Source of the DNA: Leisingera sp. NJS204
GTDB taxonomy: Bacteria; Pseudomonadota; Alphaproteobacteria; Rhodobacterales; Rhodobacteraceae
Length of the DNA stretch: 64,000 nt
NCBI RefSeq assembly: GCF_004123675.1
Contig: NZ_CP035417.1
Location: 134,501-198,500 of the forward strand
Direction: 5' to 3'
Part shown: piece by piece, positions 48,319-63,842 of the stretch
Layout of the letters: the number at the start of each line of letters is the position of its first letter
Numbering within the stretch: the stretch's first letter is position 1
Notes under the pieces: model-generated
The model's input: only the letters and a program-made list of their open reading frames with translations
What the model was told of the DNA's origin: nothing
Databases searched by the model: none
Translations under genes and position numbers: made by a program

Positions 48319-48347
48319 ACCGCATAGTGTGAAAAACGCTATGCGGT
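48319..48347 (-). terminator. hairpin downstream of the CsbD gene
   Basis: Arms accgcatag/ctatgcggt (extendable with a G-U pair), 12 bases past the stop on the minus strand. There is no U-run, so termination is only possible. Confidence 0.4.
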
Positions 48348-48358
48348 CTGCGCCTATT

Positions 48359-48556
48359 TCAGATGCTCTCCAGCATGCGGTCGACAGCTTGGCGGACTTC
48401 GTCCTTGGTCTTGCCCAGTTTCTGCTGAAGCAGCCCTTCCAATTGTTCGCGCTCGCCCTTGGCCTGTTCCAGTTCGTCGTCGGTCAGATCGCCATAGGTC
48501 TCGCGTAGGCGGCCCTTGAGTTCGGTCCATTTGCCGGTGAAACGGTCGTCGTCCAT
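48359..48556 (-). CDS. CsbD family stress protein
   Basis: A 65-residue hydrophilic protein starting MDDDRFTGKWTELKGRLRE, the CsbD/YjbJ signature, rich in Lys, Glu and Gln. In other bacteria these small proteins are strongly induced by general stress sigma factors; the molecular role is unknown. ATG 48556 follows AAAGGAG. An EcfG-type promoter match lies about 70 bases upstream at 48625-48649, which puts it in the local stress regulon. Confidence 0.9.
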   Translation of the reverse strand: MDDDRFTGKWTELKGRLRETYGDLTDDELEQAKGEREQLEGLLQQKLGKTKDEVRQAVDRMLESI

Positions 48557-48624
48557 GTCGTGTTCTCCTTTCAAGATCGGGCGGAAACCGGGGGTGTGCC
48601 GCGGTGACGCGCTCTCAATTAGAA

Positions 48625-48649
48625 AACGCTGCCGAGGCCGTAAGGTTCC
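48625..48649 (-). promoter_or_regulatory. EcfG-type promoter for csbD
   Basis: Minus-strand GGAAC (48645-48649), 16-base spacer, CGTT (48625-48628), matching the alphaproteobacterial GSR promoter pattern. Confidence 0.8.
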
Positions 48650-48812
48650 GTGTAGGCCGTGAAACTTGCATCGGCAGAAATCCACAGCCGGCGTGCGGCA
48701 GTGGCCACCTTGGAGTTTCAGGACCGGCTGGCTGCCGGGCGGTCTCTGCCGTCGTGACAGCGTGTCTCCCTTCGAAGCCGGGCATGACCTTCATTCATTG
48801 TGCCGGAATGCA

Positions 48813-49178
48813 TTATTCGCTGACCATCTCCATCACAGCATCCAGGTGGGATGTCTTGAACGGGCGAGAAAGCATGGGCAGGGACTGCAGTTCCGGCTCG
48901 GTGGTGTCCCCATTCACCAGGATGACAGGCCAATTTTTTGACAGAGCTGTGAAAAGCCAGTCACGCGCCGCCGGTTCACTAAGCGGGAAGGCAAAGAACA
49001 CCAGCCGGGGCGGCGGTTGGCTGTCATCGAAAAATGCGGAACACTGCTCAATTTTGGTTTCGCTCAAAACGGTATCGAGACCGCGGCGGATCAGATAGTC
49101 GCTTATGTCAAGCGCTTCAAAAGCGTTCTTAGTCAGGATCAATACCGGCGCTTCCGCGCCGCGAGTTTCAGTACCCAT
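48813..49178 (-). CDS. degenerate receiver-like protein (121 aa)
   Basis: A soluble protein with a receiver-like strand pattern: APVLILTKNAFEALDISDYL, then PRLVFFAFPLSE where the acceptor-Asp strand should be, WPVILVNGDT, and PMLSRPFKTSHLDAVM as the last strand and helix with Arg for the conserved Lys. No phospho-acceptor is evident. The start is ATG 49178 after GGAGACC, rather than the upstream ATGs. Same architecture as the protein at 45108-45524. Confidence 0.65.
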   Translation of the reverse strand: MGTETRGAEAPVLILTKNAFEALDISDYLIRRGLDTVLSETKIEQCSAFFDDSQPPPRLVFFAFPLSEPAARDWLFTALSKNWPVILVNGDTTEPELQSLPMLSRPFKTSHLDAVMEMVSE

Positions 49179-49791
49179 AAGGTCTCCATTCACTTGTAGA
49201 GGAGCCATGGCATTGCGCCGGGCAGCTGGCATTAAACTATGACATATCGAGTCTCGAAAAATGTCGTCAGAGTGTTTTTCCGTCCGGACACAGCCGCGGG
49301 ATGGCTAACCCGAAGGCGGGCAAGGGAGGGTGTCGGCTAACCTGTTGATAAATATTGGTTGTCGTGCATTGCCCTGGGGTAGTGCGGTTGGAAGAGGAAG
49401 GTCTTCCCTGAAAGCTTCGGCCGCAACGGCGGGTAAAGTCAATTGTCACAGGACACTTCACTCCAGCGGGCGGCACGTTAGGGGCTATGCCCCTTGGCCA
49501 GCGCGGGATATCCGGGCGTCATATGGCGGATTTGCAACGTGATCCAAGCCGAACGGCGCGGTTGCCTCCAGGCGTTTTAAAGCCAGGGGGACTGCTTTAT
49601 GGATTTTTGTATGAGGACAATCCAGGTCGCCAGTCATCCAGCGTCTTGCCTGCGGACCGTTTGCAGCAGCCGGATGCGGAGAGCGCACTGCTCCGGCAGG
49701 CGAACCGTCACCTGCATAACAGTGCGGACCTGCCGCAGCGATGGCCGCCGAGTGGTGCAACTGCCTTGGAATTGATCGGGAGGATGCGGAT
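49179..49791. other. 613-base region without a recognised gene
   Basis: Short frames on both strands show no recognisable domains or good ribosome sites. It must hold the promoter of the MscS gene and the upstream part of the receiver-like gene; I found no GGAAC-N16-CGTT match here. Confidence 0.5.
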
Positions 49792-51216
49792 TTGAACCGT
49801 AGAAAGATTTATACCGGGCGGCATCAGGGGCGCATCCTGACGCTTGGGCATGGATTGAAGGCGTTTTTAGTGTGCCTGGTTGCTGCGGCTGCACTCTGCC
49901 TTGGAACGGCCAGCGGCCAGGCACAGACCGCCACTGATCCGGTTCAGACCGACGGCCTGATCGAAGTCGGCGACGCGGCAGTGCGCGATAGCGCGATTTT
50001 GAGCAGGATCGAAAAACTGCTCGCTGAAATTGAAGGCTATGGGGCCGTGACAGTATCGGTTTCCGAAGGTGTTGTCCGTATCACCGGCCAGGTGATCGAC
50101 AATGCGGCGCAAGACAGGCTGACGCAGATCGTCAACCGCGTGGCCGGTGTGGTGGCGATTGAGAACGAGACCGAAATCAGCGGCACGCTCGAAGAGAGGC
50201 TGGCCCCCGCGGTGGACCGGATTGCCGCCCGCACGCGGAATCTGCTGGCGAACGGGCCGATTTTTCTGGTTGCGGTGACGGCCTTCTTTCTGGTGGCGGC
50301 AGGAGGCTGGCTGCTGACGACGCGGATCGGCATCTGGACCCGGCTGGCGCCCAACCCCTTTATCGCGGATGTCTACCGGGCGGTTGCGCGTATCATGTTC
50401 ATTCTGACGGGGCTGGTTCTGGCGCTTGATATCATGAACGCAACGGCGCTGATTGGTGCCGTGCTGGGGGCGGCGGGGGTAGTTGGCCTGGCGCTTGGCT
50501 TTGCGGTGCGTGACACAGTGGAGAACTTCATTGCCTCCATTCTGCTTAGCCTGCGCCAGCCGTTCAGGCCCAATGACTACGTGGACATTCAGGGCGATCA
50601 GGGAACGGTGGCGCGGCTGACTTCGCGGGCAACCATCCTGATCTCTCCCGAGGGCAACCATATCCGAATTCCCAATGCCACTGTCTTTAAGGGGCGCATC
50701 GTGAATTTCACCCGCGATCCGCATCGCCGTTTCGGCTTTGATCTGGGCGTGGATGCCGACGCGGATCTGGCAGCGGCGTTGTCCACAGCCGTGGCCGCAC
50801 TCGAGGCGCAGCCATTTGTGCTGGAAGATCCGGAGGTTGGCGCCTGGATCAGCGAAGTCGGGGATTCCAATGTGATCCTGACCTTCACCGGCTGGGTAGA
50901 TCAGACCCAAGTGGATTTCGCCAAGGCGCGCGGTGAGGCGATCCGGGCAGCCAAAATGGCGCTGGAAGGCGCGGGATTCGGCCTGCCCGAACCAATCTAC
51001 CGGGTCCGTCTGGACGGGGCGCAAGACGCTGCTGCTGCCGCCCCGGCGAAGCGCGTTGACACCCGGAAAACCCCGCCAGCGGCCAGCAGCGCAGATTTGC
51101 CCGAGGCCGCCGATCCGGCGCGGGCGGAACCGGCGGTGACCGGGGCCGCCGAGCGGGAGCGTGAGGGGCTGGATGGTGTGGAGAACTTGCTGGATGCGCA
51201 GCAGCGCGCCGAGTAA
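49792..51216 (+). CDS. MscS-type mechanosensitive channel with BON domain
   Basis: About 474 residues. A hydrophobic signal/anchor near residues 20-40 is followed by a periplasmic BON-type domain (about 65-135, GYGAVTVSVSEGVVRITGQV). Transmembrane segments follow, and the MscS pore helix is in VVGLALGFAVRDTVENFIASILL. The MscS beta domain has VDIQGDQGTVARL and IRIPNATVF. The frame opens at 49741, but TTG 49792 has GGGAGG 8 bases before it. It would relieve turgor under osmotic downshock. The C-terminal tail is Ala/Pro-rich. Confidence 0.88.
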   Translation: MNRRKIYTGRHQGRILTLGHGLKAFLVCLVAAAALCLGTASGQAQTATDPVQTDGLIEVGDAAVRDSAILSRIEKLLAEIEGYGAVTVSVSEGVVRITGQVIDNAAQDRLTQIVNRVAGVVAIENETEISGTLEERLAPAVDRIAARTRNLLANGPIFLVAVTAFFLVAAGGWLLTTRIGIWTRLAPNPFIADVYRAVARIMFILTGLVLALDIMNATALIGAVLGAAGVVGLALGFAVRDTVENFIASILLSLRQPFRPNDYVDIQGDQGTVARLTSRATILISPEGNHIRIPNATVFKGRIVNFTRDPHRRFGFDLGVDADADLAAALSTAVAALEAQPFVLEDPEVGAWISEVGDSNVILTFTGWVDQTQVDFAKARGEAIRAAKMALEGAGFGLPEPIYRVRLDGAQDAAAAAPAKRVDTRKTPPAASSADLPEAADPARAEPAVTGAAEREREGLDGVENLLDAQQRAE

Positions 51217-51228
51217 GGACCGGCTGCC

Positions 51229-51250
51229 GCCCGCACCTGGCGGTGCGGGC
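51229..51250. terminator. hairpin between mscS-like gene and AI-2E permease
   Basis: Nine-base arms gcccgcacc/ggtgcgggc with a 4-base loop between two convergent genes; no U-run. Confidence 0.45.
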
Positions 51251-51259
51251 ATATTCCAC

Positions 51260-52291
51260 TCACATAATATTGTGCAATGGATCCTCAGCCGTCTTTGCAG
51301 GCAGGCTGTGGCGCGGATCCAGCATAACTCCCAGCCACAACAGAAGCGGCAGCGCCACAAATGCACCGATGGGACCCCACAGCCACAGGCCGAAAACAAT
51401 GGCCAGAAAGACCAGCAACGGGTTCACTGCCAGACGGTTGCCGACCAGTAATGGCGTGACGATATTCGCCTCGGTCAGGTTAATGATAAGGAACAGCACC
51501 GGCGGCGCCACCGCAAGGGCACCGGTGAATTGCAGGGCGCCGGCAATACCCAGCCCCAGAATCATCAGCAGCGGGCCAAGGTAAAGAACGTAGTTCAGCA
51601 GGGCTGCCGCAAGCCCCCAGAGCACGGCGTATTCCAGCCCCAAAGCCAAGAAAATGCCTGCAGTCACCACACCAAGACCAGCATTCACCACGGTGATCGC
51701 GGCAAAATAGCGGGCCACGGCCTTGTCGGCATGCTTGAGCCGGCCGTACAACGGACCGGTGAGGCGGTAGAGATCGTCCCGGGTCAGCGTGAAGAAGAAC
51801 AGCGTGCCCACGAAGATGAACACTTGAGAGAGAAAGCTGGGCGCCAGCCACAGCGCGTCCCCCACGGATGGGATGGCGGTCTGGGGCTCCATCGCTTCAG
51901 CGCCGACAGTGTTTTCGATTTCCTCGCTGATGGTCTCTATCCCGCGCAGCAAGGAAGAGGCCTTGTCGATCAGTGAGGATATGACAGCCTTGATGCGCGG
52001 CAGTTCCTCGATCAGGGCATTCACGACCGGCTCGATCAGCAGTACGGCGGTGGCCACAAACAATGTGCAGGCAAGCAGCAGAGACAAGGCAATCACCAGC
52101 CGCGGCACGCCATAGCGTGCCAGCTTGTCAGCAAGCGGCGACACAACGATGCCCAGAACCAGAGCAAAACTCATCGGTGCCAGGATCTGCTGTGCATGCT
52201 GCAATGCCGCTGTGATGCTGATGATCGTGAGGATCATCAGCATCACCCGGACCCCCCGGCCGCTGAGTGTGGTCTTTAGATATCCTGGCAT
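51260..52291 (-). CDS. AI-2E family transporter
   Basis: A 343-residue inner-membrane protein of the AI-2E/PerM family: about eight hydrophobic segments, MSFALVLGIVVSPLADKLARYGVPR near the N-terminus and GPIGAFVALPLLLWL at the end. Members move varied small solutes (some act as Na+/H+ antiporters), so the name does not fix a substrate. It is the last gene of a four-gene minus-strand run starting at 53876 behind an EcfG-type promoter. It starts 5 bases after the preceding gene. Confidence 0.85.
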   Translation of the reverse strand: MPGYLKTTLSGRGVRVMLMILTIISITAALQHAQQILAPMSFALVLGIVVSPLADKLARYGVPRLVIALSLLLACTLFVATAVLLIEPVVNALIEELPRIKAVISSLIDKASSLLRGIETISEEIENTVGAEAMEPQTAIPSVGDALWLAPSFLSQVFIFVGTLFFFTLTRDDLYRLTGPLYGRLKHADKAVARYFAAITVVNAGLGVVTAGIFLALGLEYAVLWGLAAALLNYVLYLGPLLMILGLGIAGALQFTGALAVAPPVLFLIINLTEANIVTPLLVGNRLAVNPLLVFLAIVFGLWLWGPIGAFVALPLLLWLGVMLDPRHSLPAKTAEDPLHNIM

Positions 52292-52296
52292 TGCCG

Positions 52297-53064
52297 TCAG
52301 ACAGAAGCCGCATGCGGTGCCGGGCCGGTATCTGACGGATCGAGGCTTGCGCTGGCCTTGCGGTGCAGCTTGTCCATTTCCTCGCGCAGGGCGGCCTCGG
52401 CTTTGGCGGCCAGCGCATCACGGCGGGCGCCAAGCAACTCGTCCTCCTGACGGGTAGAAGGCAGCAAGGCCCCGATCAGTGCGCCCAGGCCTAGGGCAAT
52501 GGCCCCGGCGGCCAGCGGGTTCTGATCGAAAAAAGTTCGCGAGCGGGCCGCGGCTTTGGCGGTATGCGATTCAACTTTCTCCTGCGCCTGCAGGGCAGCA
52601 GTGCGCGCCTTCAACACCCGCTTGCGGGCAGCTGCGGGCAGGGCGTCCAGCCCTGCGTCCAGTGTCTCGCGCATCTTGCCAGCGCGGAGGGTTTCTTCAC
52701 TCATACCGGTCATCTCCTGTTTAATGGCGGCATCTGCCGCGGCGACACGCGCGTCAAAACCGGCAAAAGCGGCTTCGGGGGGAACGGCGGCGGCCGGCTT
52801 GGCGGCGGTGCGCGGGCGGCTGCTGCTGCCGGTTCCGGTGAACAGAAGGGCCAACCCAGCCCCGGCCAGAACCAGGGCTGCGGGATTGCGCTTGGCTGCG
52901 GTAATTGCCTGGCGCCCCAGTTCGCCGCCATAGCCGTTTGCCGCTGCCGAAAGCTGTTCGGTCACCGATTGCGGCGCAACGGTGCCGGACAGGCTGGACA
53001 GGCTTTCTGCCAGCCGGCGGCGGTTTGCGTCCACGCGCTGTTCGATCTCTTCAGTAGCGGGCAT
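52297..53064 (-). CDS. DUF3618 domain protein
   Basis: A 255-residue Ala-rich protein. The N-terminal part (ATEEIEQRVDANRRRLAESLSSL) matches DUF3618. A short hydrophobic segment follows at about 70-88 (NPAALVLAGAGLALLFTG), then a long helical region and a second membrane-like stretch near 200 (NPLAAGAIALGLGALIGALLP), with a Lys/Glu-rich tail. ATG 53064 follows AAGGAGG. It overlaps the DUF1469 gene by 14 bp. Such proteins are typical GSR targets; function unknown. Confidence 0.8.
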   Translation of the reverse strand: MPATEEIEQRVDANRRRLAESLSSLSGTVAPQSVTEQLSAAANGYGGELGRQAITAAKRNPAALVLAGAGLALLFTGTGSSSRPRTAAKPAAAVPPEAAFAGFDARVAAADAAIKQEMTGMSEETLRAGKMRETLDAGLDALPAAARKRVLKARTAALQAQEKVESHTAKAAARSRTFFDQNPLAAGAIALGLGALIGALLPSTRQEDELLGARRDALAAKAEAALREEMDKLHRKASASLDPSDTGPAPHAASV

Positions 53065-53452
53065 TTGCGGCCTCCTTGATGCTGGCGGCATCTTTTTTAA
53101 CATTGCTGATGGTGCGCGATGGCAGCAGCGCCTCGCTGCTGAGCTGCGACTTGCCGAACAGCAGCAGACCCAGGGCAATGGCGATCAGCCCGCCGCCGAC
53201 GATCAGCGCGGCCCATCCGGCGGACAGGCCTGCGGATGCAATCCAGGCGACCAGCGCTGCCGCAAGCACATGCAGTCCAGCCAGCGCCACCAGAGCGGCA
53301 ATAGCGAAACAAGCCAGCCCGGTTCCGGCGCGGGCGGCATTCTCCTTCAGCTCGCTCTTGGCAAGCTCGGCCTCACTGCGCAGCAGTGCCGTGAAATGCC
53401 GGAGAGCTTCCAGGAACATATCCGGCGCTTGGCGCAGATCATGACGTGCCAT
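53051..53452 (-). CDS. DUF1469/YqjE-type (phage holin-like) membrane protein
   Basis: A 133-residue protein with an amphipathic N-terminal helix (LLRSEAELAKSELKENAARAG) and two transmembrane segments (about 48-72 and 78-98), the DUF1469 (Holin-X/YqjE) pattern. It belongs to the stress-linked YqjD-YqjE-like sets rather than to a phage. Overlaps both neighbours by 14 bp, so the operon is translationally tight. Confidence 0.8.
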   Translation of the reverse strand: MARHDLRQAPDMFLEALRHFTALLRSEAELAKSELKENAARAGTGLACFAIAALVALAGLHVLAAALVAWIASAGLSAGWAALIVGGGLIAIALGLLLFGKSQLSSEALLPSRTISNVKKDAASIKEAANARY

Positions 53453-53876
53453 GCCCGGCCTCCTGCGTCATATCTGCCGGACCGTTGCTGCGGCCGTCCG
53501 GTTCGCTTGCCTTGAGGAAGCGGGTGGCGGCGAACCCGGCCAGTGCCGCGCCGCCCAAAAACAGCAGCGGATTGCGGCGCGCAAAGGCACTGACATCACG
53601 CACAGACTGTTCAATGTCCAAGCTGCGCACCCGGTGGGCGGCGTCCTCAAGGTGGCCGGCAACCATCTGCGCGGCCTGCGACTGCATGGAGCCCAGTGCA
53701 AAAGCATCCGCTGCGGCGCCAGCGGCATCCGCTGTAGCCTGCACCTCGCGGGCGGCCTGCGACTGCGCGGCGTCTGCGGCATCGCGAACCGTGCCTTTAA
53801 CCGCACCCTTGGCCTTGCGGCCCAGATCGGCAGCTTGGGCGCGGGCTTGCGATTCCAGATCAGAAGTATCGGTCAT
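53439..53876 (-). CDS. Ala-rich membrane-anchored protein, first gene of a stress operon
   Basis: A 145-residue protein. The long Ala/Gln/Asp-rich helical N-terminal part (probably coiled) is followed by one hydrophobic segment near 105-120 (NPLLFLGGAALAGFAATRFL), the layout of ElaB/YqjD-like and nutrient-deprivation-induced proteins. Not assigned to a named family. Its EcfG-type promoter is at 53913-53937, giving a 5' leader of about 30-40 bases. Confidence 0.7.
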   Translation of the reverse strand: MTDTSDLESQARAQAADLGRKAKGAVKGTVRDAADAAQSQAAREVQATADAAGAAADAFALGSMQSQAAQMVAGHLEDAAHRVRSLDIEQSVRDVSAFARRNPLLFLGGAALAGFAATRFLKASEPDGRSNGPADMTQEAGHGTS

Positions 53877-53912: not shown

Positions 53913-53937
53913 AACGCGCGCTGACGCTTTTTGTTCC
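53913..53937 (-). promoter_or_regulatory. EcfG-type promoter of the 53876-51260 operon
   Basis: GGAAC (53933-53937), 16-base spacer, CGTT (53913-53916) on the minus strand. Confidence 0.82.
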
Positions 53938-54001: not shown

Positions 54002-54187
54002 TCAGATTTTCGCGGCAGAGGACTTTGGACCTGCAATCAGCCAGATGATAAATCCCACAACGGGCAGAATGAGGATCACCAGCGTCCAAAGGATCTTGGC
54101 TGCGGTGGAGGCGCCAGAAGACAGGATCTGAATGATCGCATAAATGTCGGCGGCCAGCACCAGCAGGCCAATAATTCCATATTCCAT
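54002..54187 (-). CDS. PLDc_N domain small membrane protein
   Basis: A 61-residue protein with two transmembrane helices (MEYGIIGLLVLAADIYAII and ILWTLVILILPVVGFIIWLI), the phospholipase D-nuclease N-terminal (PLDc_N) module on its own. The ILPVVGFIIWLIAGP ending is characteristic. ATG 54187 follows AAGGGAG. It has its own EcfG-type promoter at 54223-54248 and a terminator at 53954-53979, so it forms a single-gene unit. Function unknown. Confidence 0.85.
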   Translation of the reverse strand: MEYGIIGLLVLAADIYAIIQILSSGASTAAKILWTLVILILPVVGFIIWLIAGPKSSAAKI

Positions 54188-54222: not shown

Positions 54223-54248
54223 AACGCGCGGAACCGGCAAAAGGTTCC
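54223..54248 (-). promoter_or_regulatory. EcfG-type promoter for the PLDc_N gene
   Basis: GGAAC (54244-54248), 17-base spacer, CGTT (54223-54226) on the minus strand. Confidence 0.8.
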
Positions 54249-54711: not shown

Positions 54712-54873
54712 TCAGCCTTTTATCAGGCGGACAATGATCGAGAGGACAAAGAGCACCAGGAAAATCACAAAGAGGATCTGTGCGATCCCGGCGGATGCGC
54801 CCGCGATGCCGCTGAATCCAAGAACTGCGGCGACGAGTGCCACGACGAGAAACGTGATTGCCCAACCAAGCAT
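54712..54873 (-). CDS. DUF1328 (YtjA-like) small membrane protein
   Basis: A 53-residue protein from ATG 54873 to TGA 54712. It begins [20 protein letters not shown] and ends [12 protein letters not shown], two transmembrane helices with a Gly/Ala-rich link ([12 protein letters not shown]), the classic DUF1328 sequence. It follows an AAGGGAAAGAGCC site. An EcfG-type promoter match lies about 55 bases upstream at 54926-54950. Easily missed because of its size. Function unknown; often stress-induced. Confidence 0.9.
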
Positions 54874-54925: not shown

Positions 54926-54950
54926 AACGGCTGAGCGGGCGAATGGTTCC
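54926..54950 (-). promoter_or_regulatory. EcfG-type promoter for the DUF1328 operon
   Basis: GGAAC (54946-54950), 16-base spacer, CGTT (54926-54929) on the minus strand. Confidence 0.82.
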
Positions 54951-55044: not shown

Positions 55045-55293
55045 TCAGCCGCCGTCGCTGGCGTCTTCTTCAGGGCTTTGAATGTCGACGGTGGGGACGG
55101 TCACGGTCACTTCTTTGGTGCCGGTTTCAATGTCGCCAACCTCGGCGTCGAATTCCGGCAGCTGACCGCCTTCGACGGAGACCTCCACATCAGGAAGACG
55201 GGTATCCTGGGTCTGATCGATGTCGATCATATAGATGCCAAATACCAGCACAAGGATGCCAGCGACTGCGGCAAGAATAATAGGAGGTTTCAC
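55045..55293 (-). CDS. membrane-anchored acidic protein of unknown function (82 aa)
   Basis: One N-terminal hydrophobic segment (MKPPIILAAVAGILVLVFGIY) followed by about 60 strongly acidic, beta-prone residues with repeated V/D/E pairs (PDVEVSVEGG, KEVTVTVPTVD). The soluble part would face the periplasm. No family recognised. It has its own EcfG-type promoter (55326-55351) and terminator (54999-55025). Confidence 0.7.
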   Translation of the reverse strand: MKPPIILAAVAGILVLVFGIYMIDIDQTQDTRLPDVEVSVEGGQLPEFDAEVGDIETGTKEVTVTVPTVDIQSPEEDASDGG

Positions 55294-55325: not shown

Positions 55326-55351
55326 AACGCGCCCGCGAGCGGAAAGGTTCC
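55326..55351 (-). promoter_or_regulatory. EcfG-type promoter for the 82-aa protein gene
   Basis: GGAAC (55347-55351), 17-base spacer, CGTT (55326-55329) on the minus strand. Confidence 0.8.
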
Positions 55352-56517: not shown

Positions 56518-57066
56518 TCAGGCAGCGGGGGTCTTGGATAGAATCCCGGCTGTCACGCTGTCGGTCAGCTCCAGTGCCTCGTCATCTTTCAGGTGCAGCA
56601 GATCCGCAAGGGATGCACGGGCGCGTCCGACCCGGCTTTTGATCGTGCCGACTGCGACACCGCAGGTTTCTGCGGCTTCCTCATAGGAAAATCCGCCCGC
56701 ACCCACCAGGGTCAGGGCTTCGCGCTGGGTGTCAGGCAGCTGGTCAAAGGCCTGCATAAAGTCGCGCATGTTCAGGCGGCCGTCGTGATCGGGCTTGGAG
56801 GCCAGCGCCAAAGCCAGCGATCCGTCGGCATCCTCCACCTCGCGCTTACGCTTGCGGCGCAGTGAATAGAAAGTATTGCGCAGAATGGTAAACAGCCAAG
56901 CCCGCATGTTGGTGCCGGTTTTGAACTTGCCGATGTTGGTCCAAGCCTTGATCAGCGTGTCCTGCACCAGATCATCGGCGGTTGCGGAATTCCGGGTGAG
57001 ACTGAGCGCAAAGGCGCGCAGCGCGCCGAGATGCTCGGTCAACTCATCGCGCGGATCAGCTGTCAT
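56518..57066 (-). CDS. ecfG: EcfG-type RNA polymerase sigma factor (copy at 57 kb)
   Basis: A 182-residue ECF sigma factor of the general stress response group. Sigma region 2 is at about 10-80 (ALRAFALSLTRNSATADDLVQDTLIKAW, then MRAWLFTILRNTFYSLRRKRKREVED) and region 4 at about 115-165 (LPDTQREALTLVGAGGFSYEEAAETCGVAVGTIKSRVGRAR). It is very like the factor at 62184-62741. Preceded by nepR with a 4-bp overlap and by an EcfG-type promoter, so it probably regulates itself. No phyR or kinase gene adjoins this copy. Confidence 0.93.
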   Translation of the reverse strand: MTADPRDELTEHLGALRAFALSLTRNSATADDLVQDTLIKAWTNIGKFKTGTNMRAWLFTILRNTFYSLRRKRKREVEDADGSLALALASKPDHDGRLNMRDFMQAFDQLPDTQREALTLVGAGGFSYEEAAETCGVAVGTIKSRVGRARASLADLLHLKDDEALELTDSVTAGILSKTPAA

Positions 57067-57230
57067 TGGATGTCCTTCTTAGGAAGCTCAGCTTTGCGCA
57101 GCTGCTCAAGCAGATCGGTGAACCGCTCGGGCAGCGGTTCCGCTGCCAGTTCGTCAAAGGCCTTCTTCAAATTGCGGTCGATATGGTCCGCAGCACGGGG
57201 CACTTGTTGGTGGTGTTTTAGGTTTGCCAT
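57063..57230 (-). CDS. nepR: NepR family anti-sigma factor (copy at 57 kb)
   Basis: A 55-residue protein from ATG 57230 (AGAGGGA before it). The NepR core IDRNLKKAFDELAAEPLPERF, then DLLEQL, is complete. NepR holds EcfG inactive until phosphorylated PhyR takes it away. The stop overlaps the sigma factor start by 4 bp (ATGA). The longer frame upstream runs through the promoter and is not real. Confidence 0.92.
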   Translation of the reverse strand: MANLKHHQQVPRAADHIDRNLKKAFDELAAEPLPERFTDLLEQLRKAELPKKDIQ

Positions 57231-57261
57231 TTTTCCCTCTGCTCGACGCTCACCGGAAGCC

Positions 57262-57286
57262 AACGCGTCAAGATGGGAATGGTTCC
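57262..57286 (-). promoter_or_regulatory. EcfG-type promoter for nepR-ecfG (copy at 57 kb)
   Basis: GGAAC (57282-57286), 16-base spacer, CGTT (57262-57265) on the minus strand, 32 bases before the nepR start. Confidence 0.83.
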
Positions 57287-57404: not shown

Positions 57405-57899
57405 TCATTTGATGTCAGGCCGGTCATCTGCGCCACGGTGTGTCATTAAACGGCTGACCGACAGAAGCAGGGCCGCCAGCCCCGCCGTGAGAAAAGCCAT
57501 CACAGAGAAGCCGAGGCCCGCCGCCATTCCAACCGCTCCGGCAACCCAAATGCTGGCTGCCGTAGTAATGCCGCCGACCCGCTTGTCACCCTTGATGATC
57601 GCCCCCGCGCCGATAAAGCCGATAGCGCCCATCAGCCCCTGGGCCACGCGGGTCGGATCGGAAGACAGGCCCTCGGCTTGCATCTGACGGCCGAATTCCA
57701 GACCCAAGATAACAAAAGCGGCAGCACCAAGCGAAACCATCATGTAGGTGCGGATGCCCACCCGGCGGTGGCGCAATTCCCGGTCCAGCCCCAGCAGCGC
57801 ACCGCCTGCCAGGGCAACGGCCAGCCGCAATGCCCAGTCCAGCTGTAAGGCCCAGTCCAGCTGTGTTGAAAAGCTTCCTGCACCTGCGAATATGTCCAT
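57405..57899 (-). CDS. MgtC/SapB family membrane protein
   Basis: A 164-residue protein with four hydrophobic segments and the MgtC signature: GGALLGLDRELRHRRVGIRTYMM, then GAIGFIGAGAIIKGDKRVGGITTAASIWVAGAVGMAAG. Only the membrane domain is present; the C-terminal ACT-like domain of Salmonella MgtC is missing, which is common. Near the N-terminus LDWALQLDWAL reflects an 18-bp tandem duplication (57832-57864). An EcfG-type promoter lies at 57960-57984. Confidence 0.88.
   Translation of the reverse strand: MDIFAGAGSFSTQLDWALQLDWALRLAVALAGGALLGLDRELRHRRVGIRTYMMVSLGAAAFVILGLEFGRQMQAEGLSSDPTRVAQGLMGAIGFIGAGAIIKGDKRVGGITTAASIWVAGAVGMAAGLGFSVMAFLTAGLAALLLSVSRLMTHRGADDRPDIK
57832..57864. repeat. 18-bp period tandem repeat in the mgtC-like gene
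   Basis: A 15-base identical block occurs at 57832-57846 and 57850-57864, duplicating LDWAL in frame near the N-terminus. Confidence 0.85.
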
Positions 57900-57959: not shown

Positions 57960-57984
57960 AACGCCTGAAACGGCGCCGAGTTCC
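57960..57984 (-). promoter_or_regulatory. EcfG-type promoter for the mgtC-like gene
   Basis: GGAAC (57980-57984), 16-base spacer, CGTT (57960-57963) on the minus strand, 61 bases before the start. Confidence 0.8.
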
Positions 57985-58147: not shown

Positions 58148-58173
58148 GGAACCTTTCAAGAAGCCCGCGCGTT
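58148..58173 (+). promoter_or_regulatory. EcfG-type promoter for the 58222 gene and entericidin
   Basis: GGAAC (58148-58152), 17-base spacer, CGTT (58170-58173), on the plus strand 49 bases before ATG 58222. Confidence 0.8.
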
Positions 58174-58221: not shown

Positions 58222-58710
58222 ATGACTCATCTGATCCGCACCACCGCCCTTGTTACGGCTATGGCGACGGCAGCTGCAGCCGGCTCAAAAGTCTCCGAAA
58301 TAGACGTGACGGCAGACCTGAGCGCGATCGAGAATTATCCGGCAGCCGCAGTCTGGACCAGCCTGGAAACAGACTTGGAAACCGCCCTGGCGGAGCGCCT
58401 TGTCGGCCAAATCGCGGATGAAGATGCTGAAGAGGCGGCGGAAATCCATGTTGAGATCGACTCCGTCATGCTGGCCAGCAATTTCGAACAGGCTCTGGGC
58501 GTTGGAGAATGGATGCTGAAAGGCGATGTGGACATTGATATGCCCGACGCATCCAAGGACATGCGTTACGATCTGACCGTTTCAGCTGACCAGCTGAACA
58601 CATATTACCCCGAAGGCACTGACCCGGCCGCCGTCGCTGTAGACAGCGAGGTGTTTTACACCGCCATCATCGATGCCTTTGCAGGCAACGTTGCGTCGAA
58701 ACTGAAGTAA
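58222..58710 (+). CDS. exported protein of unknown function (162 aa)
   Basis: A signal-peptide-like N-terminus (LIRTTALVTAMATAAAAGS) is followed by an acidic soluble domain (TSLETDLETALAERLVGQI, EAAEIHVEIDSVML, YDLTVSADQLNTYYP). No family recognised. A TAAGGAG site lies before ATG 58222. An entericidin-like gene follows after 10 bases and both lie behind an EcfG-type promoter, so this is probably a stress-induced envelope pair. Confidence 0.7.
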   Translation: MTHLIRTTALVTAMATAAAAGSKVSEIDVTADLSAIENYPAAAVWTSLETDLETALAERLVGQIADEDAEEAAEIHVEIDSVMLASNFEQALGVGEWMLKGDVDIDMPDASKDMRYDLTVSADQLNTYYPEGTDPAAVAVDSEVFYTAIIDAFAGNVASKLK

Positions 58711-58720
58711 GGAAAACACT

Positions 58721-58846
58721 ATGCGCATCATTCTCGCACTATTCGCACTGGCCGGCCTGGCCGCCTGTGAAACCACCGAAGGCTTTGGCAGGGACGTGTC
58801 GAATCTCGGCAATGAAATCACCGAAGAATCCCAAGAAGCACAGTAG
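58721..58846 (+). CDS. entericidin-like small lipoprotein
   Basis: A 41-residue protein: MRIILALFALAGLAACETT is a lipoprotein signal with lipobox LAAC, then TEGFGRDVSNLGNEITEESQ, the entericidin A/B motif. E. coli EcnB is a stationary-phase bacteriolytic lipoprotein; the role here is not known. It follows TAAGGA and ends before a strong terminator. Below usual ORF size limits. Confidence 0.85.
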   Translation: MRIILALFALAGLAACETTEGFGRDVSNLGNEITEESQEAQ

Positions 58847-58952: not shown

Positions 58953-60437
58953 TCAGACGATGTCTTCAGTCGCCCCCGGCAAAGGTTGCCGCAATTCTGA
59001 CATCCTATCGGGGTCATGCGGAACCAATAGTCCGCGGCGCGCCTCGGGACGGCGCACCTTGTTGCGGCGGATTTCGTTCTGCCACCAAGCGGCTGCACGG
59101 GCCGGATCCAATGCTTCAGCCGGCAATTCTTCTTGCCACCAGTGCCGCGTCAGCGCATGCCACAACGTCCTGATCCTGTCTTGCTGCGTGATCCGCAGCG
59201 CTGCCTCAGTATCCCATCGCATTGAGCGCCCGTTCAGATTGGCTGAACCCACCATGGCGAAATCCTGGTCAGTGAGCAGAACCTTGCTGTGCAGATAGAT
59301 CATCGGAGATCCCGCCAGCACCGAAGGCGCTTCGCGGGCTGCCATGCGCCGCTGCACCGGGCTGGCAATACAGGCGCGCGCACCAAAGGCGGCGCTTATC
59401 TCCTGCAGCGCTTCGGCCTGCAGCGCCATGCCATAGCGCGCATCCAATCCGCGGTTTTCATCAAAGGCGACCTCCTCGGGCAGCGCGGGAAGGATCAGGA
59501 TCAGCGACAGGTCCGGGTTGCGGCGTGCGGCATCGGCCAGCCCGCGCGCAATTACGCTGGAGCGCAGGTATTGGGTTTCCAGATAAATCAGCTGCCGGGC
59601 TCGTTCGAAGGCCTCCAGGTGGTCCTCCTCAATCTCCTTCAGGACCGTCCTCGGTGATAAGGCCCAGAAACCGGCGCGGCGCGGTGCAGACAGCGTGCGG
59701 CGGATATGCTTGCCATCGGGCGGTTGCTTGCGCAGGGCGATTTCGTCCTGAAAGCGCTCCAGATGGCTTGCGGCTTCTGCGGCTTCGGGGCCGCGCAGCA
59801 TCAACTGCACATCGGCCCATGTTTCATGCGCCGGCTGGTCATGCTTCTGCGTGTCATAACGGCGCCGGTTCAGATCCAGCCCGCCGATATACAGAACCTC
59901 ACGGTCGATCACCGCGACTTTCTGGTGCTGCGAAACCGGGTAAAGCTGCGGCACACCCTGACGGCTGGCCGCGGCAGGCCGCAGACGTCTAGGCAGCTTG
60001 CGCAGTTTGCGCATCACGAACGGAGAAAAGGCAAGCCGCGGCAAGAGACCCGCCCGCGCCGGATGCAGAACGGCCGAGACCGATAGCCGCGCAGCCTGAT
60101 CCGGTTCAAGCCGGGCCGCGATCCCTTGCGCCTGTTTCAACGTGTCTTGTGCGGCGGCATGCAGCGGCGCGGCCATGACAGGATCAAAGTCGCTTACAAT
60201 CAGCCGGACCCGAACCCCGCGCTGTAATGCGTCAACAATCAGATCGGCCCAGGTTTCCCCGGTTTCCAGCGCTTCGGGGCTTAGCAGGCGGTTGGCGAAA
60301 TCGAACAGGCGGAAGCTGGCGGTGATTTCGCTCCGGGCATCCAGGACTGCGCGCTCAAACGCGGGCCAGGCCTGCTCCGCGGTGATCAGAACTTCAAAAT
60401 CACCGCGGCAGAGTTCAGGCGGCGGGTTCTGCTTCAT
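58953..60437 (-). CDS. phospholipase D-like (HKD) protein
   Basis: A 494-residue PLD-superfamily protein with two HKD motifs: HQKVAVIDREVLYIGG near residue 175 and HSKVLLTDQDFAMVGSANLNGRS near 400. Spacing and lack of clear membrane segments suggest a cytoplasmic or peripheral phospholipase or cardiolipin-synthase-like enzyme. ATG 60437 follows AGGAG and lies inside the end of the kinase gene (23-bp overlap), so it is the last gene of the nepR-ecfG-kinase-pld run. Substrate unknown. Confidence 0.85.
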   Translation of the reverse strand: MKQNPPPELCRGDFEVLITAEQAWPAFERAVLDARSEITASFRLFDFANRLLSPEALETGETWADLIVDALQRGVRVRLIVSDFDPVMAAPLHAAAQDTLKQAQGIAARLEPDQAARLSVSAVLHPARAGLLPRLAFSPFVMRKLRKLPRRLRPAAASRQGVPQLYPVSQHQKVAVIDREVLYIGGLDLNRRRYDTQKHDQPAHETWADVQLMLRGPEAAEAASHLERFQDEIALRKQPPDGKHIRRTLSAPRRAGFWALSPRTVLKEIEEDHLEAFERARQLIYLETQYLRSSVIARGLADAARRNPDLSLILILPALPEEVAFDENRGLDARYGMALQAEALQEISAAFGARACIASPVQRRMAAREAPSVLAGSPMIYLHSKVLLTDQDFAMVGSANLNGRSMRWDTEAALRITQQDRIRTLWHALTRHWWQEELPAEALDPARAAAWWQNEIRRNKVRRPEARRGLLVPHDPDRMSELRQPLPGATEDIV

Positions 60438-62187
60438 CTTGCTCCTGTTCCGGCATCGGCGCTGCTGGTGGTACGGCTCCTGCAACGGCGGGAAAGCCCA
60501 GCCGGTACGTAAAACTGTGCTCTGTTTCATGCGTGACGGCTTCGCCGTCAAGTTGAGTGGCAAACGCTGCCATCAGCCGTGTTCCGATGCCAGTTCCGCC
60601 GATTTCCTCCGCCGGATCCAGCAGAGGTTGCCCTTTGGTGTTGGTCAATTCCAGCTCCAGCCAATTCTCGGCGGTTTCGCGCAAACTGACACTGATTTCC
60701 GGCCGTCCCCCGTCGGGCACGCCAATGTATTTGACCGCATTGGTCATCGCCTCCGATACAAGCATTGACAAGGTTACGCCCTGATCCTGGCTGAGCGGCA
60801 TCTGTGCAAGGTTCGTTTCGATCGCAATGTCCTGTCCGGTTCCTGCATTCATGGTGCCGATCTCCGCGATCAGCTCATTGATCAGCTCCCGGCTGTCCAC
60901 GGTGGAAATGTCGGGGTTGGTGTTCAGGCTGCGATGGATCGTCGCCAGGCCGCGCACCCGCCGCTGCAGCTGTGCCAGCATCCTCCGGGCTTCGGGGGTC
61001 TGTGCGTTCCGGCCCTGCATATTCATTATGGACGCCACAAGCTGGAGGTTGTTTTTCACCCGGTGATGCACCTCGCGCAGCAGCATGGTCTTTTCCTCAA
61101 GGTCAAGCTCGCGCCGACGCTCTGCTTCGCTGAGAATCGCCACCATGCGGTTAAAAGACAGCCGGGCTTCCTCAAACTCGCGCGGAGGGCTGTTGAGTTT
61201 CAGGCTTGGGTCATCCCGCTCTCCCAGCGCATACAGCCGCATTGCCCTGCGCAACGCGCTGAGATGGCGGATCACCATTTGCTGAAGACCGAGGACAGCA
61301 ACCGAAATCCCGGCAAGCCACATCAGGACCGGGAAAGCGAGCGTCATCCAGGATGTTGGGCTGGCGCTTACGGTCATGGCATTTTCCACCGGCCAGCTGC
61401 CGACTACGGAAACTTGCCCGGGGAGAATTTCACTCACTGCGAAAAAACGTTCCTGGCCAGAGCGCGCGTCTTCAAAAAACGTGTCGCCGGTGCGTTGCAG
61501 CAGTTCCCGGCGCGGTACTGAAACCGGCAGGGCCTGTGCGGCTTGCTGCTCTGGAATGCTTGCGGACAGGATCTCCCCCTGCGCGTCCAGAGTGACAAAC
61601 CGAATACCCTGCTCGGCCCATTTTGTGCCGGACAGTGATTTGGTCAGCTGATGCGGAACCGCGATGGAGACGTAGCCCAGCAGGATGCCGTCGCGCTGCA
61701 CCGGGCTGGTTGCCACCAGCTGGGGACCGCTTCCGCCCAGTATCTCCTGGCCCGCCGCAAACGAGAGGCGAGCAGCCTGCCGGGCTTTGAGAAACGGCCA
61801 CTTCTCGGAGATATCCCCGATGCTGCCGTCCGAGGTGCATTCCATCGAGCCGCCGGGCGTGATGAAGGCGGCAAAAGTGAACGGGTTCTGGCCCTGGGTG
61901 AACGATTTCATCAGGTTTGCACAGCGGTCATCACTGCCGAACACTGGCAGGATGGCTGCGGCCAGGCCTTCTGTCGCGCCGCCGGCCCGCTGTAAAAGTT
62001 CACGCTCCTTGGCGGCGGCCTGCTGTGTGTGTGCCAGCAATGATGCATGGGACAGCCTGTTGGCTTCTGCCACCACGGCGTTGGTCTGGTACAGAGCGAT
62101 CAGGCCCAGCGGCAACAGCGCAAATGTCATCAGCGCGGCCAGGCGTACCAGCAGGCTGCCGGCCTGCAGCCGCGGGACTTTGATCAT
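60415..62187 (-). CDS. HisKA_2-type membrane sensor kinase of the general stress response
   Basis: A 590-residue kinase: transmembrane segment near 12-32, periplasmic sensor domain to about 275, second transmembrane segment near 280-305, a HAMP-like linker, then HisKA_2 with LREVHHRVKNNLQLVASIMN (acceptor His near 374). A HATPase domain follows (LVSEAMTNAVKY, EIGGTGIGTRLMAAFA). HWE/HisKA_2 kinases next to phyR usually phosphorylate PhyR, so this is a probable PhyK equivalent. Its ATG overlaps the ecfG stop by 4 bp. Confidence 0.9.
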   Translation of the reverse strand: MIKVPRLQAGSLLVRLAALMTFALLPLGLIALYQTNAVVAEANRLSHASLLAHTQQAAAKERELLQRAGGATEGLAAAILPVFGSDDRCANLMKSFTQGQNPFTFAAFITPGGSMECTSDGSIGDISEKWPFLKARQAARLSFAAGQEILGGSGPQLVATSPVQRDGILLGYVSIAVPHQLTKSLSGTKWAEQGIRFVTLDAQGEILSASIPEQQAAQALPVSVPRRELLQRTGDTFFEDARSGQERFFAVSEILPGQVSVVGSWPVENAMTVSASPTSWMTLAFPVLMWLAGISVAVLGLQQMVIRHLSALRRAMRLYALGERDDPSLKLNSPPREFEEARLSFNRMVAILSEAERRRELDLEEKTMLLREVHHRVKNNLQLVASIMNMQGRNAQTPEARRMLAQLQRRVRGLATIHRSLNTNPDISTVDSRELINELIAEIGTMNAGTGQDIAIETNLAQMPLSQDQGVTLSMLVSEAMTNAVKYIGVPDGGRPEISVSLRETAENWLELELTNTKGQPLLDPAEEIGGTGIGTRLMAAFATQLDGEAVTHETEHSFTYRLGFPAVAGAVPPAAPMPEQEQDEAEPAA

Positions 62188-62741
62188 GCGGCGCTTTGCT
62201 GGGCGACGATCCCAGCCGTGACCGTATCAGTCAGTTCCATTTTGCTTTCTTCATCCAATTCCATCAGCTCTGCCAGGCGGGCACGGGCACGGTTTACACG
62301 GCTTTTGACAGTTCCGGTCTTCACGCCGCACATTTCTGCTGCTTCGTCATAGGAAAATCCGCCTGCGCCAACCAGCACCAAAGCTTCGCGCTGCTCGTCG
62401 TTCAATTGCGCAAAGGCGGCGTTGAAATCGCGCATGTGAAGCCGCCCGTCGTGATCGGGCTTTTGCGCCAGGGCGCCGGACAACGCGCCATCTGTATCCT
62501 CCACCTCGCGCTTGCGCTTGCGGCGCAGCGAATAATAGGTGTTGCGCAGAATGGTGAACAACCAGGCCCGCATGTTGGTACCGGTTTTGAACTTGTCGAT
62601 ATTGGTCCAGGCTTTGACCAGCGTGTCCTGCACCAGATCATCGGCTGTGGCCCCATTGCGGGCAAGGCTAAGGGCAAAAGCGCGCAGGGCGCCCAGGTGG
62701 TTGACCAGGTCCTCTCTCGGGTCATGCGCGGAGTCAGTCAT
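62184..62741 (-). CDS. ecfG: EcfG-type RNA polymerase sigma factor (phyR-linked copy)
   Basis: A 185-residue ECF sigma factor: region 2 with ATADDLVQDTLVKAWTNIDKF and MRAWLFTILRNTYYSLRRKRKREVED, and region 4 with GGFSYDEAAEMCGVKTGTVKSRVNRAR. Overlaps nepR by 8 bp upstream and the kinase by 4 bp downstream. With phyR, nepR and the kinase this forms a complete GSR core. It would recognise the GGAAC-N16/17-CGTT sites found throughout 48-63 kb. Confidence 0.95.
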   Translation of the reverse strand: MTDSAHDPREDLVNHLGALRAFALSLARNGATADDLVQDTLVKAWTNIDKFKTGTNMRAWLFTILRNTYYSLRRKRKREVEDTDGALSGALAQKPDHDGRLHMRDFNAAFAQLNDEQREALVLVGAGGFSYDEAAEMCGVKTGTVKSRVNRARARLAELMELDEESKMELTDTVTAGIVAQQSAA

Positions 62742-62934
62742 CGGAGCGGTTCTCCTCCGGCTGGTCCGGGGCGCGGGGTGCGTGCGCTTCCTTTTCCTTC
62801 AGCTGTTTCAGCAGATCGGTAAACCGGTCCGGCACCGGTTCACTCGCGATCTCATCGAAGGCCCGCTTGAGGTTTTCGTCTATTTCGCGGTCGGCCTGTT
62901 CATTGCGCGGCCGGGCGCGTCGTGGCTGTGTCAT
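62734..62934 (-). CDS. nepR: NepR family anti-sigma factor (phyR-linked copy)
   Basis: A 66-residue protein from ATG 62934. The core IDENLKRAFDEIASEPVPDRF, then DLLKQL, is the NepR signature, with a basic N-terminus and a hydrophilic tail of about 20 residues not seen in the 57-kb copy. It overlaps ecfG by 8 bp. The start has no strong ribosome site; ATG 62943 is an alternative. Its promoter interlocks with that of divergent phyR. Confidence 0.9.
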   Translation of the reverse strand: MTQPRRARPRNEQADREIDENLKRAFDEIASEPVPDRFTDLLKQLKEKEAHAPRAPDQPEENRSDD

Positions 62935-62963
62935 GCAATCCATCGGTTTTTTGCGCAGTTTCT

Positions 62964-62988
62964 GGAACCAAACGCGTTGAGGCGCGTA
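62964..62988 (+). promoter_or_regulatory. EcfG-like promoter for phyR (CGTA variant)
   Basis: GGAAC (62964-62968), 16-base spacer, then CGTA (62985-62988) on the plus strand, 38 bases before phyR. The -10 differs from CGTT at the last base and overlaps the divergent promoter. Confidence 0.65.
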
Positions 62989-62995
62989 TAGTTCC
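62971..62995 (-). promoter_or_regulatory. EcfG-type promoter for nepR-ecfG-kinase-pld
   Basis: GGAAC (62991-62995), 16-base spacer, CGTT (62971-62974) on the minus strand, 37 bases before nepR. Confidence 0.85.
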
Positions 62996-63026
62996 ATATG
63001 TATTGCAAAAAAAGGGACGACGCAAA

Positions 63027-63842
63027 ATGACTGCTCACTCGGGAGAATTGATCGCCAGCCAGATTGGCGCAAACCTGCCCTACCTGCGCCGCTATGCCCG
63101 GGCGCTGACCGGCAGCCAGAGCAGCGGCGACAAATATGCGCTGGCTTCGCTTGAAGCCATTCTGGCTGGCGAAAGTGATTACGACAGCGAACTTTCACCC
63201 AAAGTTGCGCTGTTCCGCGTCTTTCATGCGATCTGGTCCTCTTCCGGCTCGCCCGCCGGGGAAGAAGAAGTCGATACAAGCCTGGCGGCGAAGGCGCAGA
63301 GACACATGCGGCGGCTTACGCCGAACACCCGTGAAGCGCTGCTGCTGCACACGATCGAGGAGTTCAGTGCAGCCGATACCGGCATCGTCATGGGGGTGAG
63401 CGATGACGAAGCTTCAGAACTGATTGCGATCGCTTACGAAGAAATGTCGCGCGCCACTTCCGGCCGGATCATGATCATTGAGGACGAAGCGATCATCTCA
63501 ATGGACCTTGAGGCCATCGTGACCGGAATGGGCCACAGTGTGACAGGCATTGCCCGAACCGAAGCCCGTGCTTTGGATCTGGCGTCCGAGGCCCCGGCCG
63601 ATTTGATCCTGTCGGACATTCAGCTGGCGGATAATTCCAGCGGCATCGACGCGGTCAACGGCATTCTGGCCAAGCATGGCGACCGCCCGGTGATTTTCAT
63701 CACGGCCTACCCCGAACGCCTGCTGACCGGCGAAGGGCCGGAGCCGGCCTTCCTGATCTCAAAACCCTACACCGAGGATCAGGTGCGTTCGGCAGTGAGC
63801 CAGGCGATGTTTTTTTCCTCGACCGAAACGCTGAAAGCCTGA
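63027..63842 (+). CDS. phyR: general stress response anti-anti-sigma regulator PhyR
   Basis: A 271-residue protein with a sigma-factor-like N-terminal domain (about 1-130, starting MTAHSGELIASQIGANLPYL) that mimics EcfG, and a C-terminal receiver domain with IIEDEAIISMDLEAIV, acceptor Asp197 in LILSDIQLAD and Lys in FLISKPY. When phosphorylated it binds NepR and frees EcfG. ATG 63027 follows AAGGGA; the upstream extension to 62922 crosses the promoter. Divergent from nepR-ecfG. Confidence 0.96.
   Translation: MTAHSGELIASQIGANLPYLRRYARALTGSQSSGDKYALASLEAILAGESDYDSELSPKVALFRVFHAIWSSSGSPAGEEEVDTSLAAKAQRHMRRLTPNTREALLLHTIEEFSAADTGIVMGVSDDEASELIAIAYEEMSRATSGRIMIIEDEAIISMDLEAIVTGMGHSVTGIARTEARALDLASEAPADLILSDIQLADNSSGIDAVNGILAKHGDRPVIFITAYPERLLTGEGPEPAFLISKPYTEDQVRSAVSQAMFFSSTETLKA

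Follow-up and report, generated by a model that had tools for sequence, protein, structure and literature searches.

A general stress response locus of Leisingera with a probable pair of joined clusters and a predicted mirror-image EcfG promoter

We have analyzed a 64-kb stretch of DNA (the window, C1:134501-198500) from a 5.04-Mb genome of eight contigs, whose right-hand part carries the genes of a PhyR-NepR-EcfG general stress response (GSR). Positions are window coordinates unless a contig is named. Judged by its phyR neighbors, the source genome (G000) is a Leisingera, of the Rhodobacteraceae in the wide sense; its PhyR protein is 86-88% identical to that of eight named Leisingera records and one metagenome-assembled genome, and up to 98% identical to that of other genomes of the genus. 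The action of the kinase, PhyR, NepR and EcfG is established in other Alphaproteobacteria, and the regulons of sigma factors are usually pictured as scattered. A sequence-only reading of the window had proposed that ten EcfG promoters are grouped here around their own regulators, that such grouping is unusual, and that the region is a transferable stress island.

Gene content of the locus

Genes were identified from Pfam matches. CsbD, PLDc_N, DUF1328, two extracytoplasmic function (ECF) sigma factors, two NepR proteins, PhyR, MgtC, entericidin and a HisKA_2 kinase lie at or above the cut-off, while the names DUF883-like (E 0.08) and DUF3618 (E 0.005) rest on matches below it. The locus thus contains two sigma factors of the EcfG type, each with a NepR encoded before it, and a single PhyR with both sigma-like and receiver domains. 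We divide the genes into modules A (about 48.8-57.3 kb) and B (58.1-63.8 kb).

Module B contains phyR (63027..63842, + strand), encoding the anti-anti-sigma response regulator (PhyR_sigma2, PhyR_sigma-like and Response_reg; PF22029, PF22233 and PF00072). On the opposite strand lie the genes of the anti-sigma factor nepR2 (62734..62928, −; NepR, PF18557, E 1e-15) and the sigma factor ecfG2 (62184..62741, −; Sigma70_r2 and r4_2 above cut-off), followed directly by a HisKA_2/HWE sensor histidine kinase (60415..62187, −; HisKA_2 E 5e-22) that is probably the PhyR kinase. Next come a phospholipase D family protein (PLD; 58953..60428, −; PLDc_2) and, on the + strand, a pair of genes (58222..58846) for a 162-amino acid protein with no Pfam family (hyp162, from 58222) and an entericidin-like lipoprotein (58721-58846). 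The pair is preceded by an EcfG-type promoter at 58148..58173 (+). Between phyR and nepR2 lies a 32-bp sequence (62964..62995, both strands) in which the predicted phyR promoter (62964-62988, +) is interleaved with that of nepR2-ecfG2 (62971-62995, −).

In module A all but one of the genes are on the − strand. The anti-sigma factor nepR1 (57063..57233; NepR E 3e-13) and the sigma factor ecfG1 (56518..57066; Sigma70_r2/r4_2) have an EcfG-type promoter at 57262..57286 (−). Beyond them lie a Crp/Fnr-type regulator (55623..56336; cNMP_binding and HTH_Crp_2), an 82-amino acid protein with no Pfam family (55045..55293; promoter 55326..55351, −), a DUF1328 gene (54712-54873; E 1e-16; promoter 54926..54950, −), a 93-amino acid protein matching DUF883_C only at E 0.08 (54375-54656) and a small PLDc_N membrane protein (54002..54187; E 3e-12; promoter 54223..54248, −). 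A promoter at 53913..53937 (−) precedes the co-directional genes of 51260..53876, which include hyp145 (53439-53876), a protein with sub-threshold DUF3618 and DUF883_C matches (52297-53058) and an AI-2E family transporter (51260-52291). The module ends with a mechanosensitive MscS channel with a BON domain (49741..51216, +; MS_channel_2nd and BON) and a 123-amino acid protein with no Pfam family (48813..49184). An mgtC-like gene (57405..57899, −; MgtC E 5e-30), with a putative weak promoter at 57960..57984 (−), lies between nepR1 and module B. At the left a csbD-like gene of the CsbD family (48359..48556, −; E 9e-20) has an EcfG site 68 nt upstream (48625..48649, −).

EcfG-type sites are concentrated around the regulators

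All ten of the proposed sites are present, nine as strict matches to GGAAC-N16/17-CGTT and the tenth, that of phyR, ending in CGTA. They had been placed 25-90 bases before the starts, and we measure 28-68 nt from the −10 element to the chosen start codon for all ten. With spacers of 15-18 the window contains 11 matches compared with 1.74 expected, and none of 100 shuffled sequences reaches 11. The strict pattern occurs 77 times in the 5.04-Mb genome and the reversed pattern 123 times, so that the counts by themselves show no excess over the whole genome. Even so, nine of the 77 fall within 14.4 kb, where 0.19 would be expected from the rest of the genome (Poisson P ~1e-12). Chance as the origin of the cluster is ruled out by the shuffles and by the genome-wide density. 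Of the 68 strict matches elsewhere, 50 are inside genes as defined by a simple gene caller, and for 8 of the other 18 a called start lies 20-160 nt downstream.

The sites were ranked in two further ways. The training set of a weight matrix consisted of 359 sites in other genera, with phyR and nepR promoters among them, which favors the phyR and nepR sites of the window. The matrix places eight of the nine strict cluster sites in the top 11 of the 77; the mgtC site (57960) does not stand out from background (p 0.45). A mismatch-tolerant profile was built from 78 sites of other genera lying outside the phyR/nepR intergenic region. When 150 of the 1411 first-look candidates in the genome were scored with it, there were 12 matches at E ≤ 0.36, of which nine are in the cluster, and 17 at E ≤ 10 with the same nine in the cluster. 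The top match of the whole genome is the site of the PLDc_N gene. The sites of csbD, the 53876-51260 genes, DUF1328, the 82-amino acid gene, nepR1-ecfG1 and the hyp162-entericidin pair are supported by strict pattern, matrix and profile alike; the mgtC site is a strict match that is absent from the profile list. The site density of the genome as a whole was not found to equal that of the region, a result that would have refuted the earlier proposal.

The three non-cluster sites in the matrix top 11 precede an SH3-domain gene (window 35018), a PRC-barrel gene (C1:2942241) and a glutamate synthase-type gene (C2:14750). Weaker sites outside, with p between 0.03 and 0.15, precede two MscS channel genes, a DUF1236/SH3 gene and a gene for a lytic transglycosylase. 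The C2 site (C2:14750-14775, on a 151-kb contig) is strong and lies 156 nt before its gene. A similar site is present at G009:C7:158552-158577, though that genome lacks ecfG, and genes for FMN-binding glutamate synthase are found near ecfG on two Roseobacter plasmids.

The motif accompanies ecfG across Leisingera

Among 21 genomes of the genus, 17 have ecfG and a full-length phyR, and four (G004, G008, G009 and G020) have neither. We counted matches to a stringent form of the motif, GGAACCWWWN11-12GCGTT. There are 65 in the 17 genomes with ecfG (reversed control 15) and one in the four without (control 4), giving a one-sided binomial value of 1.5e-5. The cluster's own sites leave with the cluster, and the counts were therefore repeated without the 25 of the 65 matches that lie within 20 kb of phyR. 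The remainder is 40 in the 17 genomes versus one in the four (one-sided binomial 0.002). The genomes are related, so both values are too small and overstate the weight of the comparison. The lone match in a genome without ecfG (G009) is on another contig and resembles the C2 site of the source genome. The earlier link between the pattern and EcfG is supported, in that the motif goes with ecfG across the genus, also away from phyR.

The share of stringent matches that lies near phyR is 5/6 in G000, 5/5 in G002, 2/3 in G005 and 3/6 in G011. The 12 other ecfG-containing genomes with matches have 0 or 1 near phyR each, and G007 has none anywhere.

Clustering is common in the family

We examined 80 named phyR loci over up to 10 kb on either side. 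Outside the phyR upstream region they contain 294 strict sites compared with 33 of the reversed pattern, and the excess fades toward 10 kb. At least two further strict sites are present at 67 of the 80 loci, so that clustering is typical of the family. The view that the best-scoring sites of the genome are gathered here is thus borne out, with nine of the 12 best profile matches, but not the view that this is unusual.

A predicted mirror-image promoter between phyR and nepR

The genes phyR and nepR2 diverge, and their predicted EcfG promoters are fully interleaved, GGAACCAAACGCG...GCGTATAGTTCC, extending over 32 bp from one −35 element to the other. When upstream regions were scored with the weight matrix, 77 of the 80 named loci had this geometry (offset 5-8, span 31-33 bp) and scores above threshold on both sides. 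L107 keeps the geometry with one weak side, so that the span of 31-33 bp is retained at 78 of 80, while L062 and L109 lack it. Because 71 of these 80 loci had contributed sites to the training of the matrix, the scores are partly circular, though the spacing between the two promoters was not trained. We also took the 30 best PhyR loci of 296 evenly drawn family genomes, the source genome included, and 28 of them pass; in L277 the geometry is kept but one side is weak, and L267 has one side only. As a control, 3000 stretches were taken at random from the named loci, away from the phyR upstream region; two pass, and these overlap and are one site. A stricter palindrome pattern occurs once each in 53 of the 296 family genomes, with one occurrence of its reversed control. 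Compared by eye, all 53 are among the 144 genomes that have PhyR. All 30 of the strict-palindrome loci that were fetched, each of 3 kb, lie between phyR and nepR, and 27 of them include a kinase match. The source genome is not one of the 53 because its phyR site ends in CGTA. In geometry, the −35 to −35 span of 31-33 bp fits a putative bidirectional promoter.

Outside the family the arrangement differs. An even draw of the class gave 29 loci there that encode a PhyR-type domain, some of them short frames and perhaps not phyR, and none has the interleaved geometry. Six of these loci (L187, L188, L191, L192, L197 and L211) have promoters back to back, with −35 elements 6 or 8 bp apart. The remaining loci have neither kind of pair, L194 having a 40-bp gap. 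A few 27-bp pairs seen outside the family arise because GGTT is part of the opposite −35 element. A class-wide profile search, with stricter filters that lose weak matches, found the mirror-image promoter in five of 289 genomes, four of the family and G215 of another, and the back-to-back pattern with an 8-bp gap occurs in four of 289 (reversed control 0). The G215 sequence (L179) is a mirror-image EcfG-like sequence next to a match to a response regulator; the 3 kb read there contain no match to nepR or ecfG.

The 32 bp form an almost perfect inverted repeat, GGAACCAAACGC...GCGTTTGGTTCC, which is conserved throughout the family and could also be read as a symmetric operator for a dimeric repressor or activator. 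The bases that are conserved, on the other hand, are the ones that make up two EcfG promoters, and the inner AACG is absent at that place from the eight other island sites. The sequence upstream of nepR1 also bears on this. In all five genomes that carry nepR1, GGAACC and GCGTT are kept in the nepR direction, and the opposite −35 (GTTCC) and −10 (AACG) elements are gone; the site at 57262..57286 is thus probably a remnant of a mirror-image promoter. The Ruegeria, HF9A and Cognatishimia clusters introduced below keep phyR and both halves of the promoter, the phyR site of Cognatishimia ending in CGTA. Decay of the phyR half where phyR has gone favors two promoters over an operator, although the five carriers are related and may show one event. 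Taken together, we consider an operator to be highly improbable.

Two clusters of different lineage are probably joined

Seven other genomes of the genus provide eight clusters for comparison, since G019 has two. The core order hyp162-entericidin-PLD-kinase-ecfG2-nepR2-phyR is present in seven of the eight. In the second cluster of G019 hyp162, entericidin and PLD are missing and the match to the kinase is shortened. That genome (L118-L121) has two phyR clusters and three ecfG genes in all. A second ecfG is found in five of the 21 genomes of the genus, G000, G002, G005, G011 (Leisingera sp. ANG1, L033) and G019, and in each case it is within 6 kb of another ecfG.

In the EcfG trees EcfG2 groups with the other Leisingera copies, which form one group. 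EcfG1 groups instead with the phyR-linked EcfG of Ruegeria (L061), Phaeobacter sp. HF9A (L069) and Cognatishimia SS12 (L082), with support 98/91. The possibility that ecfG1 is a recent copy of ecfG2 is ruled out by these trees. The three clusters share the gene order of module A, namely hyp139, AI-2E, DUF3618-like, hyp145, PLDc_N, DUF883-like, DUF1328, 82-aa, Crp, ecfG, nepR and then phyR. Both the 123-amino acid protein and the 53876-51260 genes are collinear in all three. Of the three, only Cognatishimia has the MscS gene, after hyp139, at the same place as in the window and 76% identical. The Crp/Fnr-type regulator is 81% identical in Ruegeria, and the 82-amino acid protein is 72% identical in Ruegeria and 82% in Cognatishimia; the latter protein was not detected in the HF9A cluster. 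Where these clusters carry phyR directly after nepR, the window has mgtC, and no phyR lies beside nepR1 in any of the five genomes that have it.

From the lineage of EcfG1, the matching gene order and the missing phyR we infer that the native GSR cluster was joined by one of Ruegeria type, which lost its phyR. We therefore read the region as a compact GSR regulon island of two joined clusters, in which module A is of the Ruegeria/Cognatishimia lineage and lacks PhyR. We put the probability of this reading at about 0.8. Transfer of module A and vertical descent of module B are both tentative readings, drawn from gene-level comparisons.

Both EcfG lineages could alternatively have been present in the common ancestor of Leisingera and Ruegeria by an old duplication, followed by differential loss and no transfer. 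The two lineages are distinct and both found among roseobacters, and EcfG paralogues are common in Alphaproteobacteria (PMC3892343, in part). Such a history needs loss of module A in 12 ecfG-containing genomes of the genus and loss of its phyR in all five carriers. Furthermore, a second EcfG of the EcfG1 kind near phyR is found at just one of the 80 named loci (10 kb either side at most), that of Leisingera ANG1, one very divergent Yoonia match aside. We regard the duplication as unlikely, though it is the strongest competitor to the joining of two clusters.

Several points weigh against the reading of the region as two joined clusters of one regulon. An ancient duplication with many losses would also yield two lineages in one genome. 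The evidence for the promoters is the motif, and they are predicted promoters. The stringent motif was chosen with the sites of the window in view, and the training set of the weight matrix includes some loci that were later tested. Two genomes that have ecfG, G007 and G019, contain 0 and 1 stringent matches. In the 12 of 17 ecfG-containing genomes without a second ecfG most stringent sites are far from phyR, and tight clustering is strongest in the G000/G002 line. Finally, targets elsewhere may be more numerous than counted, since not every EcfG promoter need keep to the strict consensus.

Evidence on transfer

The earlier proposal of a transferable island holds in part. The system is patchy among relatives, since PhyR is detected in 144 of the 296 family genomes (E ≤ 1e-50) in addition to the uneven presence of ecfG and of its second copy within the genus. 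For module A the other lineage of its EcfG, its occurrence in five of 21 genomes, its collinearity with the Ruegeria, HF9A and Cognatishimia phyR loci, and plasmid-borne relatives all speak for mobility. Its movement is plausible, but as a mobile unit the island is unproven. The presence of module B, the complete switch, in 17 of 21 speaks against the proposal, and no integrase or att site was seen at the edges of the 44.2-63.9 kb block, where no dedicated search for att repeats was made. Nor was transfer machinery found for the island, the only mobile element inside the block being an insertion sequence.

A protein search of a plasmid collection gave an EcfG-like match in 33 plasmid records, 15 of which were listed. 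Dinoroseobacter shibae pDSHI02 and Roseobacter ponti p1 carry phyR, nepR, ecfG and a kinase together with PLDc_N and Dps genes and a mirror-image promoter, pDSHI02 having DUF1328 and Crp genes in addition. On Roseobacter litoralis pRLO149_94 the four regulators are present, with no site above threshold.

Could the whole 44.2-63.9 kb block have entered as one transferable element with its own regulators? The left flank differs between G000 and G002, and both flanks differ in G019. Four of the 21 genomes of the genus have no full-length PhyR or EcfG, including G009, a close relative by flank identity, and phyR-nepR-ecfG clusters exist on the Dinoroseobacter and Roseobacter plasmids. Yet the module B regulators are present in 17 of 21 genomes with the Leisingera copies forming one group, the two modules are of different lineages, and no integrase or att site was seen at the block edges. 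The chromosomes of the genus seem much rearranged, so different flanks are weak evidence. No clean empty site was seen in the one 20-kb stretch of G009 that was read. Entry of the block as a single element is therefore improbable, and we favor two clusters with separate histories.

Three features lie to the left of or within the block. An insertion sequence at 47024-48267 has an rve transposase and 32-nt imperfect terminal inverted repeats. It is absent from G002, where its flanks join with an overlap of about 8 bp, and it is thus probably a later insertion. At the far left end of the cluster (44284-45524) are a Crp-type gene, with a weak EcfG-like site ahead of it (45051-45075), and a 138-amino acid gene; in the core-type genomes G003, G006 and G010 these two genes sit downstream of phyR. 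At 40533-41844 the end of a tyrosine integrase, which is split into two reading frames, is overlapped by a tRNA-Trp gene (40652-40727). We considered this as the edge of the island and rejected it, because in G002 both the tRNA and its preceding gene lie at a great distance from the cluster. The preceding gene, which we take to be tuf, has two copies in the source genome, at 0.17 and 3.58 Mb, in opposite orientation. On this evidence the site looks like a separate chromosomal rearrangement breakpoint. A 51-nt copy of the 3′ part of tRNA-Trp is present at C1:3601194-3601244 in opposite orientation, as if the integrase site took part in a large inversion.

Discussion

The locus has all the components of the alphaproteobacterial PhyR-NepR-EcfG (ECF15) system, counting a probable PhyR kinase, and its promoter consensus. 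It also shares the layout in which phyR and a nepR-ecfG operon diverge, each side having an EcfG promoter (PMC4814048, in part). It differs from a typical system in having two nepR-ecfG pairs of different lineages within 15 kb, one phyR, and nine of the 12 best promoter matches. Genomes with more than one EcfG or NepR are described for Sphingopyxis granuli TFA, with a GSR regulon of 79 transcriptional units, and for Methylobacterium extorquens (PMC7083833 and PMC4814048, each in part). Unlike those cases, the second pair in Leisingera belongs to a cluster that is of a different lineage and probably has its own targets. At the RSP_1274 phyR locus of Rhodobacter sphaeroides, ecfG-like and nepR-like genes lie beside phyR on the opposite strand, and a Crp-Fnr gene lies downstream of phyR (PMC5830050, in part); neither the geometry of the promoters nor grouping of targets is mentioned there.

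In its sequence the predicted mirror-image promoter resembles the bidirectional sigma-70 promoters of E. coli, which also have pseudo-symmetric sequence and two opposite starts (PMC12825309, in part). The E. coli promoters share one −10 element, with starts most often 18 bp apart, and binding of one polymerase blocks the other, competition mattering only at high activity, according to the same part of that account. By contrast, the Leisingera sequence would be two complete ECF promoters interleaved, with both −35 elements outside and both arms feeding one feedback loop.

What appears new here, on the sequence comparisons, is the joining of two GSR clusters and the sharing of one 31-33 bp mirror-image pair of EcfG promoters by phyR and nepR-ecfG. 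Open-licence literature, at the level of titles and the beginnings of abstracts, yielded nothing on interleaved EcfG promoters or on clustering of the regulon in roseobacters; subscription papers were outside its reach, and we make no claim of priority.

We propose the following mechanism by analogy with known GSR biology. Module B is the usual complete partner switch of the genus, comprising a probable kinase, PhyR, NepR2 and EcfG2 together with PLD and envelope genes. Stress would lead the kinase to phosphorylate PhyR, phosphorylated PhyR would remove NepR from EcfG, and RNA polymerase with EcfG would then fire some ten promoters within 15 kb, its own among them. Module A has NepR1 and EcfG1 with about ten envelope and osmotic-stress genes. 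Lacking a PhyR it presumably leans on that of module B, and with one phyR for two nepR-ecfG pairs EcfG1 should be freed by the same PhyR. In the mirror-image sequence the two predicted promoters overlap over most of their length, so that by the E. coli rule two holoenzymes should not sit there together and one polymerase at a time would act. Such a shared, mutually exclusive start region would tie the output of PhyR to that of NepR-EcfG.

More broadly, the GSR of the Rhodobacteraceae may travel and evolve as a compact island around one mirror-image EcfG promoter, at which a single polymerase would choose between NepR-EcfG and PhyR and so control their ratio. In this line of Leisingera a foreign island would have settled next to the native one, given up its own PhyR and become coupled to that of the resident cluster. 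We offer this wider scheme tentatively, at somewhat less than even odds.

A part of the regulon thus lies around its own switch, patchy in the family and sometimes plasmid-borne, which gives a view of how such a master response can be acquired, lost and united with a second copy. If our reading of it is true, the mirror-image promoter would be a simple device for keeping an activator and its inhibitors in proportion.

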